Below are positions 1-11,610 of a DNA stretch of 30,318 bases, one piece after another. Source of the stretch: a virus; IMG/VR virus record IMGVR_UViG_3300005340_000521, positions 1 through 30,318 of that record. One strand, written 5' to 3'. Position numbers and translations under genes: made by a program. The notes below the pieces were generated by a model. It was not told the origin of the DNA, made no database searches, and saw only the letters and a program-made list of their open reading frames with translations. The stretch's first letter is position 1; each line of letters begins with the position of its first letter.

Positions 1-1533
1 AGCCCCCAGCTCGCCCTGCCAGTAGGAGAGCAGCTCGCGTCCCGTCGGGAGCTCCTCGTAGGTGCCGAGCGCGGCGATTCCCGCATCGGTGATGGTGAGC
101 CGGTCCCGCGAGCCCTCCATCCATCCTGCGGCGCGTCCCCTTCCCAGGTAGGTATCGAAGGTGCCGCTCTTGCTAGAGAGCCCGGCGCGCACGCCGAGCT
201 GCTGCGCGGAGAGCCCCTGCGGGCGCTGCGCGAGAGCGGTGAGCATCCGACGCAGGCCGCCTCGGCCCACAGCGGGGTCTGGGTCTACGCCGCGGGACGC
301 CTTCGTTTCACGGGTAGCACGCGGGCGGGTCGGCGCGGGCACCACCAGATGCCGCGCGGGAAACGAGGGCCCCGCGCGTCCGTTCCCAAGGCTCTTCAAC
401 GACGCAACGACCTGGTTCCCGACCTGGTGCGCCACACGCACCTCGGCCAGAAGTCGCTCGTACCGCTCGTAGAACGAGTTCGTCCATGTCTCGAGCTGCT
501 CGACGAGCTCAGCGAAGACTTCGATCTGCACCTGCTGGATGGCGGGAACCTCGACGCGCTCGATCTTGGCCTCTGCCGTCGGCCGCGCCTTCAGCTGGCG
601 CTCGAGCTCGAGGATCTTCTTCCGCAGCTCGCGCGGGTCCTCAGCCTTCGCGCGTTCGATCGTCTCCGCCATCCTGGTCTTGATCGCGCCCAGGTCGACG
701 TCGGCGAGGGTCGCCGGCGGGCGGGCGCCGTGGACGTCCTTCGGTGTCGCCCCGCTGTCGAAGGTGGTAGAGCGGCGCGTCAGGACACGCGCAGTCGTCC
801 GAAGCCACGACGGGGACCAGACCCACGCCTCGCCGTTCTTCAGCCCTTCGAGGCTGGCGAGCAGCTCCTTCGCCTGGCCGTGGAACTCGACCCAGGCAGC
901 GATCGCCTTGCGGTCTTGGGGCGACGTCGTACGGAGGACGAAGAGGGTCTCGACCTGCGTCAGGACGCTCTTGTTCAGGGACGCGGACCGCTGCGTGATC
1001 ATCGTGATGCCGAGCCCGCGAGCCCGGCCGCGTCGGACGATGTTCTCCCACGATCGGAGCAGGCGCGCCTGCTCCCTGAACGGCCGCTGCGGACAGTAGT
1101 CGTCGGCCTCCTCGAGGAACAGGTGGAGCGGGTCCTGGTTCTTCCGGTAGAGCCGCTCCGCGAAGTCGATCAGGAACCGGATCTTGTCTCCCTCGCTGAA
1201 CTCGGAGACATCGAGCACGCAGGAGAGCCGGTCCCCAACGACCAGGTCGGCGATGAGGGCGCCGCCGGTCTTCTCGAGGGGGACGTCCTGTTTCCTGCCG
1301 CCGAAGATCGGGATCTCGATCCCCGCGCCCTTCCCATCGCGTGAGGAGCGCAGGCCCCACCAGGAGCCGACGGGATCCACGGCGACGAACGGGAGCTTCG
1401 CCGCATACATTTCCTCGGCCATGACGCGCGCGAGGTTGGTCTTCCCTGCCCCACGCATCGCGAGGATCCCGAAGGTCTGCGTGACGGCGTTGAGAGGGAG
1501 GAACAGGTCCTCGGAGATGCGGAGGCCCTTCAT
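1..1533 (-). CDS. HerA-like AAA ATPase (partial, runs off left edge)
   Basis: The frame is open from an ATG at 1533 to the window edge, giving at least 511 residues with no stop. A P-loop is visible near residues 22-32 (GILAMRGAGKT), followed by a Walker-B-like strand ending in two acidic residues near 141-142 (HLFLEEADD). A glycine/arginine-rich segment and a sensor-like strand follow near 170-185 (GLGITMITQRSASLNK). This pattern is typical of the HerA/VirB4 branch of the FtsK-HerA superfamily, which moves DNA or drives end resection with a nuclease partner. After about residue 260 comes a probable coiled coil. The visible C terminus looks like a winged helix (LTALAQRPQGLSAQQLG). The ATG overlaps the upstream stop as ATGA. 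It is the last visible gene of an operon that also encodes two nucleases, which supports a DNA-processing role. A packaging or partition role is an alternative. Confidence 0.82.
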   Translation of the reverse strand, partial: MKGLRISEDLFLPLNAVTQTFGILAMRGAGKTNLARVMAEEMYAAKLPFVAVDPVGSWWGLRSSRDGKGAGIEIPIFGGRKQDVPLEKTGGALIADLVVGDRLSCVLDVSEFSEGDKIRFLIDFAERLYRKNQDPLHLFLEEADDYCPQRPFREQARLLRSWENIVRRGRARGLGITMITQRSASLNKSVLTQVETLFVLRTTSPQDRKAIAAWVEFHGQAKELLASLEGLKNGEAWVWSPSWLRTTARVLTRRSTTFDSGATPKDVHGARPPATLADVDLGAIKTRMAETIERAKAEDPRELRKKILELERQLKARPTAEAKIERVEVPAIQQVQIEVFAELVEQLETWTNSFYERYERLLAEVRVAHQVGNQVVASLKSLGNGRAGPSFPARHLVVPAPTRPRATRETKASRGVDPDPAVGRGGLRRMLTALAQRPQGLSAQQLGVRAGLSSKSGTFDTYLGRGRAAGWMEGSRDRLTITDAGIAALGTYEELPTGRELLSYWQGELGA

Positions 1534-1712
1534 GTTCGCGCCTCCAACACCTTCTTCACCTGCTGGCAGTCCGCGCACCGCACACGGCTCAGCCCCGCGC
1601 GGTGCCAGGCCGAGGAGTGCTCCGCGCGGCAGTCGACGCAGCGCTTCCGATCGCGCAACTCCGCCTGGAGAGTGCGCTCGTCAACGGCGCGTAGGTCGAT
1701 GCGAGGCTTCAC
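1530..1712 (-). CDS. Small zinc-finger-like protein, 60 aa
   Basis: A short basic protein with two cysteine pairs, CVDC and CADC, separated by about 20 residues that include a histidine (AEHSSAWH). This spacing would suit one structural zinc site. It starts at a GTG that overlaps the upstream stop as GTGA. Its own stop overlaps the ATG of the HerA-like gene. A longer in-frame reading from 1757 would run deep into the upstream gene and is less likely. Function is unknown. Its position between nuclease genes and the ATPase suggests a small accessory or DNA-binding protein, which is inference only. Confidence 0.6.
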   Translation of the reverse strand: MKPRIDLRAVDERTLQAELRDRKRCVDCRAEHSSAWHRAGLSRVRCADCQQVKKVLEART

Positions 1713-1987
1713 CGTTTCATCCCCCGATCCCGCTTCACATCGGCCGCCTTCGGGCACGTCGACCAGTGGGAAACCATGTGGGTGCGGTCCTGTCGAGGCG
1801 CGAGATCGATACTACCCACGGGCCCGATGCTCGAGTACCCCTTCCCGTTCGCGCGATCGCATCGTTCCGCGGATGGACTCACAAGAAAGACGGGGGCGGA
1901 GGGATCGAGGATCTGCCTCGTGCCCTTATCGTCGGTGGCCCACACCACGGACTTCCCGCAGAAGCTGCAGGTGGCGCTCAATGGCAC
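1709..1987 (-). CDS. Small zinc-finger-like protein, 92 aa
   Basis: The chosen GTG start at 1987 overlaps the upstream gene by 10 bases; TTG at 1981 is an alternative. The N terminus has a CSFCGK pair and the C-terminal half carries a single Cys (SAERC) and a HMVSHWSTC segment, so one zinc site with mixed His/Cys ligands is plausible. I do not recognise the family. It lies in the tightly overlapped early operon, directly before another small zinc-finger-like gene. The long open frame upstream of the start (to 2569) is a shadow of the neighbouring gene. Confidence 0.55.
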   Translation of the reverse strand: MPLSATCSFCGKSVVWATDDKGTRQILDPSAPVFLVSPSAERCDRANGKGYSSIGPVGSIDLAPRQDRTHMVSHWSTCPKAADVKRDRGMKR

Positions 1988-2469
1988 GCCTTCCTGACGT
2001 CGGCGATCGACCCGTTGACATAGTCGCGCCAGTGGATGAACCGACCGCGGTTCCAGAATCCCCAGGGCCGGACGGACTTCAACACGATGACGAGCGTCCA
2101 GCACTCGGAGCCGACGAGGCGCAGCCGGTGGATGTGATGTGCCGGGAAGGTGCGAATCCATGGGGCGCGGTAGAGCCGCTCGTGAACGAGATTGATCAGC
2201 TCGAGCGGCCTGGCCGGGTAATGCAGATGTCGGGGATCGTATCGGGGCGTCTGTTCGATGTAGGAGCCACGCAGCCCCACCGAGATGAAGCGCTTCGGGT
2301 GATCGTGGAGGTCGAGCGCCCAGTCGTCGCCGACGAACCGATGGACGTAGATGCCGCGGCCGCGGTACTTCAGGAGAGTCCAGCGGTAGAGGTACACCGG
2401 ACAACGGCCGGCGCCGCTGATCTCCTCCGGTGATCCGAAGAGTCGCGTCAGAAGCCGTGCGAGGCTCAT
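1978..2469 (-). CDS. Cupin-like conserved phage protein, 163 aa
   Basis: The protein has a histidine-rich beta-rich core: a DLHDHPKRF segment near residue 55, a glycine-containing strand (GLRGSYIE), then FPAHHIHRL near residue 110 and a hydrophobic strand (CWTLVIVLK). Two His clusters separated by about 50 residues resemble the metal site of a cupin-type small-molecule-binding fold. Substrate and role are unknown. Similar proteins with a D-H-P-K core are, from memory, often found as accessory genes in phages of Gram-negative hosts. The ATG overlaps the upstream exonuclease stop as ATGA, so the two are probably translated together. Confidence 0.65.
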   Translation of the reverse strand: MSLARLLTRLFGSPEEISGAGRCPVYLYRWTLLKYRGRGIYVHRFVGDDWALDLHDHPKRFISVGLRGSYIEQTPRYDPRHLHYPARPLELINLVHERLYRAPWIRTFPAHHIHRLRLVGSECWTLVIVLKSVRPWGFWNRGRFIHWRDYVNGSIADVRKACH

Positions 2470-3176
2470 CGCGCGGGCGCCTCCACGATCTCTCGAACCT
2501 CGAACGGCAGCGCAAGCTCCGCGAGGTCCTCGGGGACGATCCTCTTGTGCCAGATCTTCGCATCCCCATCCCAAGCGAACCCCGCCGCCTTGGCGAGCTC
2601 GCGATCGTCGTAGCTCACGAACGCGCGGTACTTCTTCTTCGGCCGCAGCGCGCGCTCCATCATGGCGGTGAGATCCGCCCCCAGCTCGGCCGCCCGCTCG
2701 AAGAGCCGCACCAGGAGCAGCACGTCCTCCAGGGCGCGATGCGCGGACCCGACGCCGAGCCCATGCGCGAGGCAGATGCCGACAAGGGACTTGTTCGGGG
2801 ACGTGCGGGGCCACTCGATGTCGTCCATCGAGCAAACCCAGGGTCCCGGCTCCTCGACCTCCATGAGGCGGCGCGGGACGAACGAGCGGTCGAAGCTGGC
2901 GTGATGCGCCACGATCACATCGCCGAGCGCGAACCAGTCCGCAACCTCGGACCAGTCGCCCTCCCCCCTCGTTCCGAATCGAGCCAGGAGCGCCGGGGAA
3001 AGCCCGTTCACGAACTCCGCCGGGTTCTCCTCCGCGTGGAACAGAAACGACGCGGCGCGCACCAGCGTTGCGTCAGGTATCGAGAAGAGCCCGACTCCGA
3101 CTTCGAGGACGCGATCCTTCGCAGGGTCGGTGCCGGTGGTCTCGACGTCGAAGAGGAGGGCGGTTTCGAGCTTCAT
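2466..3176 (-). CDS. DnaQ-like 3'-5' exonuclease (DEDDh) with extra C-terminal module
   Basis: Residues 1-165 carry all the DEDDh exonuclease residues: D10 and E12 in FDVETTGTD, D96 in HHASFDRSFV, and H146 with D151 in AHRALEDV. Such enzymes remove 3' nucleotides from DNA or RNA with two metal ions. Residues about 178-215 add a compact module (YRAFVSYDDRELAKAAGFAW, then a WHKR end). It resembles the short DUF5710-type domain attached to phage DNA enzymes; that match is from memory. The gene starts with an ATG that overlaps the stop of the Cas4-like nuclease gene, so the two nucleases are likely co-translated. A proofreading subunit is less likely because no polymerase gene is nearby. Confidence 0.88.
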   Translation of the reverse strand: MKLETALLFDVETTGTDPAKDRVLEVGVGLFSIPDATLVRAASFLFHAEENPAEFVNGLSPALLARFGTRGEGDWSEVADWFALGDVIVAHHASFDRSFVPRRLMEVEEPGPWVCSMDDIEWPRTSPNKSLVGICLAHGLGVGSAHRALEDVLLLVRLFERAAELGADLTAMMERALRPKKKYRAFVSYDDRELAKAAGFAWDGDAKIWHKRIVPEDLAELALPFEVREIVEAPAR

Positions 3177-4225
3177 CGGCCTTCCCCAGCCGGCGCCGCG
3201 CCGATCCTGTCCAGCTCGAGGAAGAACTTCCCCTTCTCGTCCACCTTCTTGAACTTCGCCTTGATGTCGTCGGGCAGTTCATAGGTGGTGTTCTTCCCCC
3301 AAGAGCCGCGGACCTCGTAGTCGCCCATGATCGCCAGCTCGACGCCGCGCAGGGACTTGGACAGATCTTTCCACGCGCGGTCGTAGGCCTTGGACGCGGG
3401 CTCGTTCTCTTCGCAGATGCGCGCGAGGTTGATCAGCCGCTCGTCGGTGATGATCGTGGCGCCGGGCCCGTAGTCGAGAGGCGGCGCGCAGCTCTTCCCG
3501 AGGTGATCGCACCGGCGACATTCGGCGCGGTCGTCCGTGAAGGGCGGCATGGCCCCTTCTCCGGTACGGGCGAGGACGGCGACACGGGCGTCCGCGAGGA
3601 ACCGCTCGGCGCGCTCCAGGTGATCCTCGAGGTTCACCCGCAGGAACTTCGGGACGGCCGGCCGATCCAGGATGAGGAACCCCCAGGGCTCGGACTCGGC
3701 GAGCAGGTAGCTCAGGAGCTGGTCGAGCATGTGGCGCGTCCAGGGGGAGCGCTCCAGATCCTCGATCGTCTCGACGTGGCGCACCGACTCTCCGCTCTTC
3801 ACCTCGAAGACCGGACGCGGCGCGCTTCGGCCGAAGTAGAGCCGGCCGTCGATCTTTCCCACGATCAGCACCCGGTTGTCCCGATCGCGGATCTCGAACC
3901 GCTTCTGTCCCTCGATCATCGAGAAGGGCGGCGTGCACCGTGGCCCGACCTGGAGCAGCCTCGCCACGATCGCGGCCTCGCGCTCGACGCCTCGCCTCAT
4001 CCGCTCGAGCTGGTCGGGGGTGAACTCCGGACGGTCCCCCGGATAGAGCAGGTCCAGAGCCATCCGGCGCGTGCAGGCACGCCTCTGCGAGGCGTAGACG
4101 TAGGACAGGGAGCCCGTGGAAGGCCCCCCGTCCCCCGCCCGCAGGTAGCCCTCCCACGCCGACACGATCGCCGCGATGTGATCCGCGCCGGGCGCCGGCG
4201 AGCCGATGAGTGCGGGCTCGCTCAC
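3173..4225 (-). CDS. Cas4-like PD-(D/E)XK exonuclease with iron-sulfur cysteines
   Basis: The 350-residue protein shows the RecB/Cas4-type nuclease pattern in order: a first cysteine at C51, an acidic helix near E81, D126 in VGKIDGRLYF, the E141-V-K143 strand (VFEVKSG), and a Q-xxx-Y helix at Q169/Y173 (MLDQLLSYL). Three more cysteines at 236, 239 and 246 complete a probable 4Fe-4S site with C51. This set is typical of Cas4 and AddB-like exonucleases that resect DNA ends. The C-terminal 100 residues are extra and of unknown role. It starts at GTG overlapping the upstream stop as GTGA. The context (probable annealing protein upstream, DnaQ and HerA-like genes downstream) suggests phage recombination rather than CRISPR adaptation; no CRISPR array was seen. 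Confidence 0.88.
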   Translation of the reverse strand: MSEPALIGSPAPGADHIAAIVSAWEGYLRAGDGGPSTGSLSYVYASQRRACTRRMALDLLYPGDRPEFTPDQLERMRRGVEREAAIVARLLQVGPRCTPPFSMIEGQKRFEIRDRDNRVLIVGKIDGRLYFGRSAPRPVFEVKSGESVRHVETIEDLERSPWTRHMLDQLLSYLLAESEPWGFLILDRPAVPKFLRVNLEDHLERAERFLADARVAVLARTGEGAMPPFTDDRAECRRCDHLGKSCAPPLDYGPGATIITDERLINLARICEENEPASKAYDRAWKDLSKSLRGVELAIMGDYEVRGSWGKNTTYELPDDIKAKFKKVDEKGKFFLELDRIGAAPAGEGR

Positions 4226-5235
4226 CGGCCTCCGCCGCCTTCCTTCCCGTCACGATCGGCCGCGTCACCGAAGACGGGGTGGGCCTTGAGCTTCGCCAGG
4301 GCCTTCTTGACCTGCCAGTCCTGCGTGAGCCGCGTCACGGTGTCGAAGCCCTTGAAGCCCTTCTCCTTGTCGGACGTGATGTCCTGGGTGAGCTGCGCGG
4401 CCGCGGCCAGGTCGCCCCCGACGCGCCGGACGATCTCCTCGCCGAGCTTCGCCGCCTCGCTCTTCGTCTCGGCGCTCGTGACGGCTGCCGCCCCGCGCTC
4501 GGACCCGGAGCCGTAGCCGCTCCCCTTCCTCGCGTTCTCGACCTTCTTGTCCGTCCCCGCCCACGACTTGCGAAGGTCGGACACGGGCACGCGGGACATC
4601 CCGCAGAGGATCCGCACGGCCTTCGTCCGGAGGGAAGTCAGGGTCGACATCCTCAGATCGGACTCGAGCGCCGCGCCGTCATCAGGCCGGCGCCCCTTCA
4701 CCAGGTGATCGTCCTTGTCGACCGAGCGGCCCGTGAAGTCCTCGTCCGACCATCGCGCCGCCTCGATCCCCTCCAGCGATCTCCCGTTGAAGCGCGCGAA
4801 CCCGTCGCAGGCGCCGCGATAACCGTAGGCGTCGGCACGCATGAGCTTCTCGGGAGCGAAGAGCCCCTTGTCATCGGTGGGGCGGATGTTCTTGATGACG
4901 ACGCCGTACATCTCGGCGACGAGCGAAGCTCCCGAATCCGCGAGCATGCCGACCTCCGCGCCGGCGTTGTCCTTGGACAGGATCCAGTCCTCGGGCCGCG
5001 TTCGTCGCAGGGCGGCGAGGTAGCAGGCCTCGATCAGCTCCGTGCGGCGAACGAACACCTCCGCGGAGTCCTTCATCGCCGTGAGGCGTTCGAGCAGGGA
5101 GCGCTCCGCCTGTTCCGTGAGGCTCAGCTCGTGATCGATCTCGTCGCGTCGAACGACGATGGACGTATCCGTCGTGGGGATCGAGTAGTCGGGCATCCTG
5201 CGCGCCTCCTGGGTTGTGACTCGTTCGGGTTCCAC
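4222..5235 (-). CDS. Possible phage recombination or ssDNA-annealing protein
   Basis: Up to 337 residues. The start is unclear. GTG at 5235 has a GGAAGG site, but ATG at 5196, preceded by AGGAGG at about 8 bases, is equally good and gives 324 residues. The N-terminal third is helical and charged. The centre has a region reading YGYRGACDGFARF, then EAARWSDEDF. A helix-rich stretch (LTSLRTKAVRILCGM) follows, which resembles the conserved helix of several phage annealing-protein families. The C terminus is charged and low in complexity. The assignment rests mainly on its position directly upstream of a Cas4-like exonuclease, the usual place of a single-strand annealing partner. The sequence alone does not prove it. 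Confidence 0.6.
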   Translation of the reverse strand: MEPERVTTQEARRMPDYSIPTTDTSIVVRRDEIDHELSLTEQAERSLLERLTAMKDSAEVFVRRTELIEACYLAALRRTRPEDWILSKDNAGAEVGMLADSGASLVAEMYGVVIKNIRPTDDKGLFAPEKLMRADAYGYRGACDGFARFNGRSLEGIEAARWSDEDFTGRSVDKDDHLVKGRRPDDGAALESDLRMSTLTSLRTKAVRILCGMSRVPVSDLRKSWAGTDKKVENARKGSGYGSGSERGAAAVTSAETKSEAAKLGEEIVRRVGGDLAAAAQLTQDITSDKEKGFKGFDTVTRLTQDWQVKKALAKLKAHPVFGDAADRDGKEGGGGR

Positions 5236-5293
5236 GGATTGACCTTCCTTTCGGGCCGGGCTACGATCTCCGGCGAATCCTCTTCATGCCTTT

Positions 5294-5323
5294 GGCCCCG
5301 CTACCCTGACCCGGTGCGGGGCC
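5294..5323. other. Intergenic hairpin, 8-bp stem, terminator-like on plus strand
   Basis: GGCCCCGC (5294-5301) pairs perfectly with GCGGGGCC (5316-5323) around a 14-base loop. On the plus strand the stem is followed by TTTCGTTTCT, which resembles a Rho-independent terminator. On the minus strand, where all adjacent genes lie, the stem is followed by AAAGGC and has no U-tract. It sits in the gap between the 38-residue membrane ORF and the possible annealing protein. It may block antisense transcription or act as an RNA-processing structure. Confidence 0.45.
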
Positions 5324-5332
5324 TTTCGTTTC

Positions 5333-5449
5333 TCAGCTGGGCGTGAACGCCGCGACCACGATCGCGACGATGACGACGGTGAGCAGGGCGACGGCGAGGA
5401 CCTGGACCGGCCAGGGCTCGGGCGCGTCGAGCGCGACGGGGGCGATCAG
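5333..5449 (-). CDS. Small single-span membrane protein, 38 aa, CTG start proposed
   Basis: The C-terminal 25 residues form a clear transmembrane helix (LAVALLTVVIVAIVVAA). The only plausible start is CTG at 5449, whose last two bases begin the TGA stop of the upstream gene (CTGA overlap), mirroring the ATGA and GTGA overlaps elsewhere in this operon. The same frame stays open far upstream across the neighbouring gene, but that part reads as low-complexity shadow. Function is unknown. It is the only visible membrane protein between the conserved 88-residue gene and the recombination genes. Confidence 0.4.
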   Translation of the reverse strand: MIAPVALDAPEPWPVQVLAVALLTVVIVAIVVAAFTPS

Positions 5450-5712
5450 CGCGGGAGGGTTGGCTTCGTCGGCTCCGGGCGCGGCCCCCCGGTGACGTTC
5501 GTTGGAGCGTGCTTGCCGCGTTTCACGATCGACAGCTGCGGCTCGTCGAAGGTCTCCGGCTCGAAGGTCTTTCCGTCCTTGCCTACGCCCGTTGGCTTGA
5601 GCGTGATCCGCCTGCACCCGTGGAGCCATTCCGAGATGCAGATCACGACCCCGTGGAATCCCGTGATCGAATCCTTCGCCACATCGCCCAGCTGCACTCG
5701 CGGCATGGACAT
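5446..5712 (-). CDS. Conserved phage hypothetical protein, 88 aa
   Basis: A compact protein with a core that begins KDSITGFHGVVICISEWLHG and continues with a cysteine, R-I-x-L, a lysine-rich turn and FDEPQLSIVKRG. I recall this pattern from many short phage proteins, but no function is known. The ATG at 5712 has a GAGGG site about 7 bases upstream; a second ATG lies two codons downstream. It follows the roughly 500-base stretch with no convincing gene, so it may be the first gene of the downstream segment of the early operon. Confidence 0.72.
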   Translation of the reverse strand: MSMPRVQLGDVAKDSITGFHGVVICISEWLHGCRRITLKPTGVGKDGKTFEPETFDEPQLSIVKRGKHAPTNVTGGPRPEPTKPTLPR

Positions 5713-6210
5713 CTATTCCCTCGCATTCACCGGAATTGGTGGGGCGGGCAGCCTCCTCGGAAAGCCCGCCCCGGTTCGCTGCAAGGCGCACCGCGCGGCG
5801 CGCCAGTCGGATGAAGCGAGAGATAGCGCCGGAGGGACTCGAACCCTCCCCGCGCGTACGGACCGACTGCGGCCGAACCGGAATCGGGGCAACGTGCGCG
5901 GTGGCCTGGCCGGGTTGCGATCCCTCGCCTCGGCGCTCGTGAGAAGTGGCTTCCCCGCGGGCGGCAGGGGTCGCCGGTGAAGGATCCCGCCCGATCCGCC
6001 TCTTGGGGGAGGGTGTGCCGGGAATCTCCACCGTCCCGGCGCGGTTGACAGGAGGGGCTTCGGTCGCCACTCGGGTGGAAGGCCGAGCCGTACCGAGAGC
6101 CTCAGCTGGAGCTCCAAATCGGCGGGGATGATCGAAGGCCGCGCCGCCCGACGTGAGAGCCACCGGCGAGCTCGCGCGCGTACGTAGGTAGCCGATGGGG
6201 CGGCGCGTCG
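5713..6210. other. Stretch of about 500 bases without a convincing gene
   Basis: Frames are open here on both strands, as expected at high GC. None gives a protein-like composition: the minus-strand readings are rich in Pro, Ala, Arg, Ser and Thr with no hydrophobic core. One minus frame could start at GTG 6214, overlapping the upstream stop as GTGA, and would run through to 5333. It would overlap the conserved 88-residue gene completely, so I do not call it. The stretch contains the tRNA-like element at 5824-5937. Confidence 0.5.
5824..5937 (-). other. tRNA-like element (T-arm plus 7-bp acceptor stem), unusual length
   Basis: On the minus strand the 3' end reads GAGGG-TTCGAGT-CCCTC, a perfect 5-bp T-stem with a canonical seven-base T-loop. 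It is followed by CGGCGCT and a discriminator A at 5824. A sequence complementary to the acceptor strand, AGCGCCG, lies at 5937-5931, which makes a 7-bp acceptor stem. The total is 114 bases, too long for a normal tRNA, and the D-arm is poor. A 4-bp CCGA/TCGG helix with a seven-base loop (anticodon would read CCG) lies roughly midway. CCA is not encoded. It could be a divergent tRNA, a decayed one, or the 3' part of a host tRNA carried in a phage attachment site. Confidence 0.35.
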
Positions 6211-10217: not shown

Positions 10218-10994
10218 ATGGCCACGCGCAAGCGCCGATTCCGCTTCACGATCAGCGAGTCCTTCACGCCGGACACGCTCCCGATGGCTCGCCTCGCCGA
10301 GTACATGTGGGACATCGCCACGTTGCTGGGGGAGAAGGACAACGTGCACTTCGTCGGGCTCGAAACTGGGAGCGTGGGAATCGTAGAAGACGTCGACTGG
10401 CAGGCCGTTCCGAAGGTACGCGATCGGGTCAGACGGGTCAGGCGCAACGATGCGCCTCCAGATGCACAACGGGCGTACGAAACCCTCAATAGACGGCTTG
10501 CTGATGACAACACGTCTGGATATCTCATCGAGGAACGGGACCCAGGGGCCCACGCCGAGGACCTTGCTCCATCAGCCCGAATCCTGGAGTTTCCCGGCAT
10601 CAAGCGACATGTGCAGCCGGAGTACGGGCCCTTCAACCAGCCCAGCACGCTGCAGGGAACGATCATCGTCATCGGTGGCGTTGGGGATCCGGTCCCAGTG
10701 CATATCGAGGACGGCGACGTCGTCCACCTCTGTCAGGCACGGCGCCGCATCGCTCGCGAGTTCGGTTCACACATCTTCGGCCCACCGATCCGTGTGTTTG
10801 GGACGGCGCGATGGTCTCGCGACGCCGAAGGGACATGGGTAATGAGGAACTTCACGATCGAGTCCCACACGGTTCTCCGAGACGAGACGGCGAAAGAAGC
10901 CTTTGAGCGGCTTCAGGCCCTCCCAGGAAAGTGGAAGGAACGCCCGGATCCATTAGGCCAACTGGAGAGAATTCGCGGGGGCGGCAAGGACTAA
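10218..10994 (+). CDS. Orphan partner of the PIN nuclease, 258 aa
   Basis: The first gene of the four-gene cassette. GGGAG lies 7 bases before the ATG. The N terminus is basic and beta-rich (TRKRRFRFTISESF), followed by a helix with a patterned core (MARLAEYMWDIATLLGE). A second half has a strand-rich region (GTIIVIGGVGDPVPVHIEDG) that could be an OB- or SH3-like barrel. I do not recognise a named family. Its place 4 bases before a PIN-domain gene resembles an antitoxin-toxin or sensor-effector order, though at 258 residues it is larger than a typical antitoxin. Composition looks less GC-rich than the flanking late genes. Confidence 0.72.
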   Translation: MATRKRRFRFTISESFTPDTLPMARLAEYMWDIATLLGEKDNVHFVGLETGSVGIVEDVDWQAVPKVRDRVRRVRRNDAPPDAQRAYETLNRRLADDNTSGYLIEERDPGAHAEDLAPSARILEFPGIKRHVQPEYGPFNQPSTLQGTIIVIGGVGDPVPVHIEDGDVVHLCQARRRIAREFGSHIFGPPIRVFGTARWSRDAEGTWVMRNFTIESHTVLRDETAKEAFERLQALPGKWKERPDPLGQLERIRGGGKD

Positions 10995-10998
10995 CTGA

Positions 10999-11610
10999 AT
11001 GGGGCCAGTCCTCTTCGACGCAGATCACCTGATTCTCTTCTTTAACCCGACGGTGGCGAATGTCGTTCATCCCACCACCAAGAAGCCTGTGGACCGGGTG
11101 GGCGACCGGGTTCGGTTCTATCTCACCGAAATGTCCAGGACCAGGACGCGGGTGATCGTGCCTACACCGGCGCTCAGTGAATTCCTCGTTCTCGCCGGAA
11201 GCGAGGGGTCTGACTACCTCACACGGATAGAGGAATCGTTCGCATTTCGGGTCGCAGGCTTTGATGCCCAGGCTGCCGTGGAGGCGGCAGCCAATCTTCT
11301 CTCGGCAATAGGCGCAGGCGATAAGAAGGGCGGGGCTACAGGGGCCTGGCAGAAGATCAAAGTCGATAGGCAGATCATCGCGATTGCCAAGGTCACCGGA
11401 TGCGTGGCGATCCATTCGAACGACAAAGACATCCGAAAGCTTGCGAAAGAAGTGGGCATTCCGGTGGTCCACGTCTCCGAGCTCCCGCTTCCGCCCCCTG
11501 AATCGGGCCTACTGCCCTTCGAGGGTCCACAGCAGCAGGCTCTGCCCGCTGCTGTGCCCGTCGTCGAGACGCCGCCTGCGGCTCCTCCAACGACGCCAGA
11601 GGGATCATGA
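10999..11610 (+). CDS. PIN-domain nuclease
   Basis: All four PIN acidic positions are present: D7/D9 in LFDADHL, E61 in ALSEFLV, D123 in KVDRQIIAIA and D142/D144 in SNDKDIRKL. PIN domains are metal-dependent ribonucleases; stand-alone forms are often VapC-like toxins that cut tRNA, rRNA or mRNA. The protein is about 50 residues longer than a typical VapC because of an inserted segment and a Pro/Ala-rich tail after residue 160. AAGGA lies 8 bases before the ATG. It follows the 258-residue orphan by 4 bases and overlaps the zinc-ribbon gene as ATGA, so it belongs to one cassette. Confidence 0.85.
   Translation: MGPVLFDADHLILFFNPTVANVVHPTTKKPVDRVGDRVRFYLTEMSRTRTRVIVPTPALSEFLVLAGSEGSDYLTRIEESFAFRVAGFDAQAAVEAAANLLSAIGAGDKKGGATGAWQKIKVDRQIIAIAKVTGCVAIHSNDKDIRKLAKEVGIPVVHVSELPLPPPESGLLPFEGPQQQALPAAVPVVETPPAAPPTTPEGS

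Follow-up and report, generated by a model that had tools for sequence, protein, structure and literature searches.

The window analyzed here is the complete IMG/VR record IMGVR_UViG_3300005340_000521 (G000; labels beginning with L and G denote loci and records of relatives, respectively), a stretch of 30,318 bp that encodes the neck and tape-measure proteins of a tailed phage, as well as an endolysin. Its left end carries an unbroken minus-strand run of seven genes with a 4-nt overlap at each junction. The run is headed by a gene for a 337-amino acid protein, designated p337 (4222..5235, GTG5235 to TGA4222), which is a candidate single-strand annealing protein (SSAP) with a predicted RAD52-type fold. 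It is followed by the gene for a 350-amino acid Cas4-type PD-(D/E)XK nuclease with four predicted Fe-S cysteines (3173..4225, minus strand, GTG4225 to TGA3173). A preliminary description of this DNA had joined these two proteins with a HerA/FtsK-type ATPase and a DEDDh exonuclease from the same run into an end-resection and annealing machine. That idea fits p337 and the nuclease, but HerA and the DEDDh protein are probably not part of it. We consider it likely that the functional unit is a two-gene SynExo module, consisting of the RAD52-fold SSAP p337 and then the Cas4-type Fe-S exonuclease, with the ATPase being separate. This reading is based on the conserved pairing of the two genes, one natural fusion, the conservation of active-site and cysteine residues, and the predicted folds of both proteins.

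A single-sequence scan with the window nuclease returned no relatives, and a tblastn search of the nuclease and p337 against phages likewise returned none; relatives in IMG/VR were reached with two-row and six-row alignments, and distant relatives in named phages with the L098 query. Small alignments served as scan queries and gave 52 loci for the nuclease and 11 for p337, which together represent 55 distinct contigs. A p337 homologue was found inside the fetched 5-kb flanks at 50 of the 52 nuclease-query loci, and the nuclease was present at 11/11 loci retrieved with p337. As expected of a SynExo system, in which the SSAP and exonuclease genes are kept together, both genes are present in 53 of the 55 distinct contigs that bear either one; in the two exceptions (L087 and L096), the contig start falls just before the nuclease gene. 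In 31/55 contigs p337 is upstream of the nuclease at a gap of no more than 60 nt, overlaps included, while the remaining contigs have spacings of 60-1200 nt (14) or >1200 nt (5), p337 downstream (2), a fusion (1), or an unpaired gene (2). The first-round p337 profile, built from six sequences, found 63 ORFs and the final round found 64; thus, the pairing result is independent of iteration. Near-duplicate contigs are present in the set, and at 92% identity 47 p337 and 44 nuclease sequences are left; alignments A7 and A8 were reduced at this 92% threshold, subject to length limits, and exclude the fused relative L105.

Members of both families were also found in named phages and in acidobacterial sequences. 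In MW202801.1, which was reached via p337, a Cas4-like gene (E 6e-41) lies directly after the p337 homologue UOF82125 (L141:3920-4756); in Hydrogenobaculum phage 1, reached via the nuclease, gp12 is p337-like (E 9.7e-21; L140:1837-2472) and gp09 is the Cas4. The E-values for both phages come from a seven-protein search. A contig from an Acidobacteria metagenome-assembled genome (MAG; L139) carries both p337 and Cas4, and among three more places found in two acidobacterial genomes (G118 and G120), the two in G120 each have the pair. A 188-amino acid ORF that appears HNH-like by eye lies between p337 and Cas4 in G002 (L065:15743-16309) and is perhaps a homing-endonuclease insertion.

One relative encodes both proteins in a single chain. 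The L105 locus (530-2407) is one uninterrupted 625-amino acid ORF, in which residues 8-274 match p337 (E 7.6e-116) and residues 300-624 match the nuclease (E 2.2e-158). This natural fusion suggests that p337 and the Cas4-type nuclease contact each other, consistent with the Red system, in which the exonuclease and the annealing protein interact specifically (PMC5052646, in part).

The preliminary description recognized a complete Cas4-type nuclease, and its cysteine and catalytic motifs proved to be real and conserved family-wide. The window protein itself matches nothing in Pfam and has a weak Cas4-domain match alone in PHROGs (E 6e-4); across the family, phrog_1706 is matched by 36/45 members and phrog_1990 (Cas4-domain exonuclease) by 30/45. 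Residues C51, C236, C239, C246, E83, K124, K143, Q169, and Y173 are conserved in 45/45 aligned members, and D126 and E141 in 44/45. The family therefore has the D...(E/D)xK plus Q...Y catalytic residues of the Cas4/lambda-exonuclease PD-(D/E)XK nucleases, together with the one N-terminal and three C-terminal cysteines of Cas4, for which a 4Fe-4S cluster is predicted from the sequence. In a structural model of the L105 fusion, to which the window nuclease is 40% identical in alignment A10, the nuclease half aligned with lambda exonuclease (Z 12.6, 167 residues, 3.1 Å), the Cas4 protein SSO0001 (Z 12.5, 199 residues, 3.7 Å; Foldseek E 4.5e-6), and RecE (Z 10.2). Sso0001 is a 5'-3' single-strand DNA exonuclease of the Cas4 family, which binds an Fe-S cluster (PMC3466216, in part).

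The AlphaFold2 model of p337, built from a 48-row alignment (pLDDT 84.7, pTM 0.64), comprises, in order, a helix (57-78), a pair of strands (84-88 and 94-98), a second helix (100-110), strands running from 112-118 to 153-162, and a final helix (187-211). The RAD52-superfamily fold is described as alpha1, a beta-hairpin, alpha2, a three-stranded antiparallel sheet, and alpha3 across the sheet (PMC9870868, in part), and the modelled p337 appears to follow this definition in the order of its elements. Upon comparison of the model with solved structures in VIA-align, RAD52 entries and Mgm101 took the top 12 PDB rows; the best match, to RAD52, has a Z of 7.4 (131 residues, 4.8 Å), which falls below the value of 8 under which a match possibly reflects just a common arrangement. 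Only RAD52 and Mgm101 stand out above the remaining families in this list: the dsRBD row (Z 4.9) equals that of yeast Rad52 (Z 4.9) and exceeds that of lambda Red-beta (Z 4.3), and the LptE and PBP rows rank lower still. The viral list for the same model contains phage proteins labelled ERF, Rad52, and RecT throughout, and its top match (E 3.7e-7) is unnamed. For the p337 half of the L105 model, the match to RAD52 has a Z of 9.0 (85 residues, 2.6 Å) and that to yeast Rad52 a Z of 8.0. The preliminary description had taken the position of p337 for that of a single-strand annealing protein, and the RAD52-type predicted fold and the near-invariable pairing with the nuclease speak for that reading. 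By its model, p337 would be a RAD52-fold SSAP, with annealing as its presumed activity.

Alternatively, p337 could have no annealing role and instead serve the nuclease as a DNA-binding accessory, such as a loader or a specificity subunit. The lack of a sequence link to known SSAPs would suit such a role, as would the zinc-ribbon-like C-terminus seen in 40/48 family members; the window p337 and five other members have a different C-terminal ending without the zinc-ribbon cysteine pattern, which is helical in the window model. We nevertheless find an accessory role unlikely, because RAD52 and Mgm101 lead the list for the window protein, the fused relative attains Z 8-9 in its RAD52 rows, and phages normally have SSAP and exonuclease genes side by side (PMC5052646, in part).

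Five further genes complete the minus-strand run. The gene after the nuclease encodes a 236-amino acid DEDDh (DnaQ-type) 3'-5' exonuclease with a DUF5710-like tail (2466..3176, ATG3176 to TGA2466); its match to PF00929 (E 4.2e-7) upholds the earlier assignment, and it also matches phrog_192 (E 3.2e-25) and, below the cut-off, PF18974 (E 7.4e-5). The next three encode a 163-amino acid cysteine-dioxygenase-like protein (1978..2469, ATG2469 to TGA1978; phrog_4786, E 6.2e-32), a 90-amino acid Cys-rich protein (1709..1981, TTG1981 to TGA1709; phrog_5984, E 2.1e-5, with the match spanning residues 199-281 of a longer ORF that contains the protein), and a small Cys-rich, zinc-ribbon-like protein with a weak DksA-like match (1530..1712, GTG1712 to TGA1530; phrog_54, E 0.0023). 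The last gene encodes the HerA/FtsK-type ATPase (1..1533, from ATG1533 onward), whose C-terminus is cut at the contig end and whose start codon is more likely the one at 1533 than that at 1578. Thus, the run is contiguous and overlapping, as the preliminary description held, but it has seven genes rather than four, with three unlisted genes between those for the DEDDh protein and the ATPase. The 4-nt overlaps make a single transcript with coupled translation likely, without implying a joint function of all seven genes.

The assignment of the ATPase to the HerA/FtsK group stands: both PF01935 and PF05872 exceed the Pfam cut-offs in its core, and its profile matches HerA chains in the PDB (best 9x1l, E 6.1e-19). 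A scan with the ATPase, followed by a scan with its alignment, found 60 relatives on viral contigs as well as one in MW202482.1, and these 61, plus the window, constitute 62 loci. The proteins are 552-655 amino acids long in the 47 relatives listed. Walker A lies at a median position of residue 29, with a Walker A to Walker B spacing of about 110 (36 of 50 members, in which both patterns were matched). HerA proteins are defined by an N-terminal HAS domain, through which they contact the nuclease. With Walker A so near the N-terminus, the sequences appear to leave no room for such a domain, whereas winged-helix repeats seem, by eye, to be present at the C-terminus.

Co-occurrence around the 62 loci argues against a four-gene system. 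Within 10 kb on either side, the DEDDh subfamily was found at two loci, the cysteine-dioxygenase-like protein at three, and the window Cas4 and p337 families at the window alone; a phmmer search detected the DEDDh subfamily in 0/55 Cas4/p337 contigs. Hence, the co-occurrence that would bind the four genes together did not materialize: HerA is not generally linked to the p337-Cas4 pair, the DEDDh protein recurs near neither, and we rejected the four-gene system on these DEDDh counts. The DEDDh gene is an optional, variable neighbour, and the three small genes are likewise variable. The cysteine-dioxygenase-like gene was observed directly upstream of the HerA-like ATPase in the window (1978-2469) and at L043:8970-9665 and L051:8203-8667.

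The preliminary description further proposed that the HerA-type motor drives the Cas4-like nuclease. In such a scheme, the translocase would pull DNA through or to the nuclease, and p337 would coat the product. The single overlapping operon of the window favours it, as does G056, a 70-kb phage contig (L126:2143-6085) in which HerA (2143-3831), p337 (3880-4905), and Cas4 (5069-6085) are consecutive. Furthermore, HerA is on the same strand as the pair in G002, about 10 kb off, and L100 has an N-terminal HerA fragment about 4.6 kb downstream. These cases contrast with whole-record counts: HerA occurs in 3/50 Cas4-bearing records (50 of the 55 distinct Cas4/p337 contigs, with L111, L115, L116, L117, and L131 omitted), and window-type Cas4 in 1/50 HerA-bearing records (G002; 50 of the 61 HerA relatives, with mostly short contigs omitted). 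The HAS domain has no apparent room, and the ATPase has no fixed nuclease neighbour; DUF3799, a known PDDEXK neighbour, occurs in 1/50 HerA phages. On the basis of the whole-record co-occurrence we rejected HerA as the motor of Cas4 as a general rule, and we regard HerA-driven resection as very improbable; the idea is tempting but weak and is corrected here. A narrower version, in which a HAS-less HerA/FtsK motor whose C-terminal domains bind DNA has been recruited to the SSAP/Cas4 pair in a subset of phages (the window, G056, and possibly G036 and G002), seems quite unlikely as well. If it were true, a single machine would couple translocation, resection, and annealing, as a phage counterpart of HerA-NurA-Mre11-Rad50 assembled from different parts.

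A third proposal for the ATPase is that it is the genome-packaging motor, of the HerA/A32 type. Residues 31-244 match phrog_2666, which is labelled terminase large subunit (E 1.7e-17), and there is a weak profile match to the packaging ATPase B204 of STIV (E 0.31). Yet the complete, circular genome MW202482.1 encodes the HerA-like ATPase plus a separate terminase (Terminase_6N, E 3e-6, above the cut-off) and portal, so the ATPase is not the sole packaging motor there; in addition, the window, though itself incomplete, has tailed-phage neck and tape-measure genes that imply terminase packaging. We therefore rejected this candidate on the MW202482.1 terminase and portal, and consider it extremely improbable. 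The preliminary description would have been abandoned by its author had the ATPase proved to be a packaging or partition protein with no link to the nucleases in relatives: a general ATPase-nuclease link is indeed missing in relatives, but MW202482 does not use the ATPase as its packaging motor, having a terminase of its own.

The neighbours of the ATPase are mixed and include ParB, integrase, SMC/SbcC-like, and methyltransferase proteins. Among 149 adjacent proteins (set A6, 149 of the 159 picked; the omitted ones are the long L015:3547-7215 and the final nine, and the pick lacked the window, L010, and L014), ParB domains occur in 5 and SMC/RecF-type domains in 3. Within 10 kb, ParB-like ORFs are found at 16/62 HerA loci, although 9 of these 16 had supplied seeds for the ParB profile. 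These neighbours, the AAA_23 protein near HerA in MW202482, and the C-terminal winged-helix repeats read by eye would suit an FtsK/TraB-like translocase that acts in segregation or early DNA handling alongside ParB- or SMC-like partners and not with the nuclease. Most HerA loci, however, have no nearby ParB, and the 16/62 count has no control from comparable phages. We hold this role to be a real but less than even possibility, and it is compatible with p337 and the nuclease forming a SynExo pair. In several soil phages (L002, L015, L022, L043, and others), a large ParB-domain protein is encoded immediately beside the HerA-like ATPase, and a 546-amino acid gene that the ParB profile did not score occupies the ParB position beside the ATPase in L013 and L014. 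The AAA_23 protein (SbcC/Rad50-like) of MW202482.1 is encoded at L010:23537-24931. Overall, the HerA-like ATPase is probably a separate DNA translocase that shares the operon and is a bystander to the p337-Cas4 pair.

Several observations weigh against the two-gene module. The p337 family has no SSAP match in Pfam (6 members searched), PHROGs (6 and 48 members), or PDB sequences, so that the profile comparison with annealing-protein families envisaged in the preliminary description came back empty for Pfam and PHROGs; however, the lack of a sequence match is not defining, because the RAD52 superfamily is held together by fold. The similarity of the window p337 to RAD52 is middling and structure-only (Foldseek E 3.3e-3, TM by target 0.36), and its Z score is in the cautionary range. 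The L105 fusion is one metagenome ORF, which could reflect misassembly or contain an internal start, and its model does not fix the domain arrangement (pTM 0.48, linker pLDDT <50); moreover, the Cas4 fold was modelled for this relative alone. The acidobacterial genome G118 has a distant Cas4 and no p337 within the approximately 1.4 kb fetched alongside. Finally, the DEDDh gene and the small genes overlap in the window operon, making translational coupling to the pair probable, and HerA shares that operon and adjoins the pair in G056, so a role with the p337-Cas4 pair in some phages is possible.

If p337 and the nuclease do form a SynExo module, the Cas4-type nuclease would resect the 5' strand wherever phage DNA has a double-strand end, leaving 3' single strands that it would pass to p337 by direct contact. 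The p337 protein would then anneal these strands to single-stranded complements, such as those exposed in replication gaps, and the outcome would be concatemers, genome repair, or recombination, as with Red-alpha/Red-beta. We infer the polarity, the physical contact, and the annealing in this scheme.

Elsewhere in the window, positions 10218-11610 hold two plus-strand genes, opposite to the remaining genes, that match phrog_19868 and phrog_21691. The one matching phrog_21691 also has a PIN-like match slightly below the Pfam cut-off, and the two could be a toxin-antitoxin-like pair.

The ATPase core places the window protein in the same HerA/FtsK group as the HerA of HerA-NurA and of HerA-nuclease defence systems; unlike those, it has a compact core, with no apparent room for the HAS domain and no conserved nuclease partner. 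For the p337-Cas4 pair, the closest description from archaea is of the rudivirus SIRV2, in which Guo and colleagues reportedly found, in 2015, an operon with single-strand DNA-binding, annealing, and Cas4-like nuclease activities. The SIRV2 nuclease has 5'-3' exonuclease activity (PMC4625639, in part). Both are viral operons that join annealing to a Cas4-like nuclease, a likeness drawn by description alone, and SIRV2 differs in being an archaeal rod-shaped virus. Among tailed phages, RecT/Red-beta genes with a Cas4-like PD-(D/E)XK neighbour have already been published (PMC12403621, in part), and YqaJ, DUF3799, and DUF2800 are described as further SSAP neighbours of the PDDEXK type (PMC8093625, in part). 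The window shares with the RecT/Red-beta loci an annealing protein gene beside a Cas4-like nuclease gene, but their SSAPs are recognizable by sequence, whereas p337 is missed by Pfam and PHROGs. The named phages with distant members of both families, Hydrogenobaculum phage 1 (gp09/gp12, with two small genes between them) and MW202801.1 (UOF82125/UOF82076), are annotated merely as having a Cas4-domain exonuclease, a crispR-associated protein, or a hypothetical protein, the last being the label of gp12 and UOF82125.

As far as we searched libraries and literature, what is new is a RAD52-fold family that is not recognized by sequence, the almost constant association of this family with a Cas4-type nuclease, and the occurrence of both in a single chain; the titles and abstract openings searched describe no phage SSAP-exonuclease fusions, from which we do not claim that such fusions are unreported. 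The phage SSAP-exonuclease pairs gain a family with an annealing protein that Pfam and PHROGs miss; its members come mostly from environmental phages, an Acidobacteria MAG and a Hydrogenobaculum phage each contributing one relative. For recombineering in bacteria where lambda Red performs poorly, new p337-Cas4 pairs are candidate tools. Like the lambda Red-alpha/Red-beta and RecE/RecT SynExo systems, they combine, in adjacent genes, a candidate RAD52-superfamily annealing protein with a PD-(D/E)XK exonuclease. They differ from Red and RecET in that the nuclease is Cas4-type with four predicted Fe-S cysteines, no known SSAP in the libraries used resembles theirs in sequence, and in one phage a single chain holds both proteins. 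Because the two are covalently joined in L105, this fusion allows a long-standing question about Red to be tested directly, namely whether loading of the annealing protein by the exonuclease depends on contact between them.

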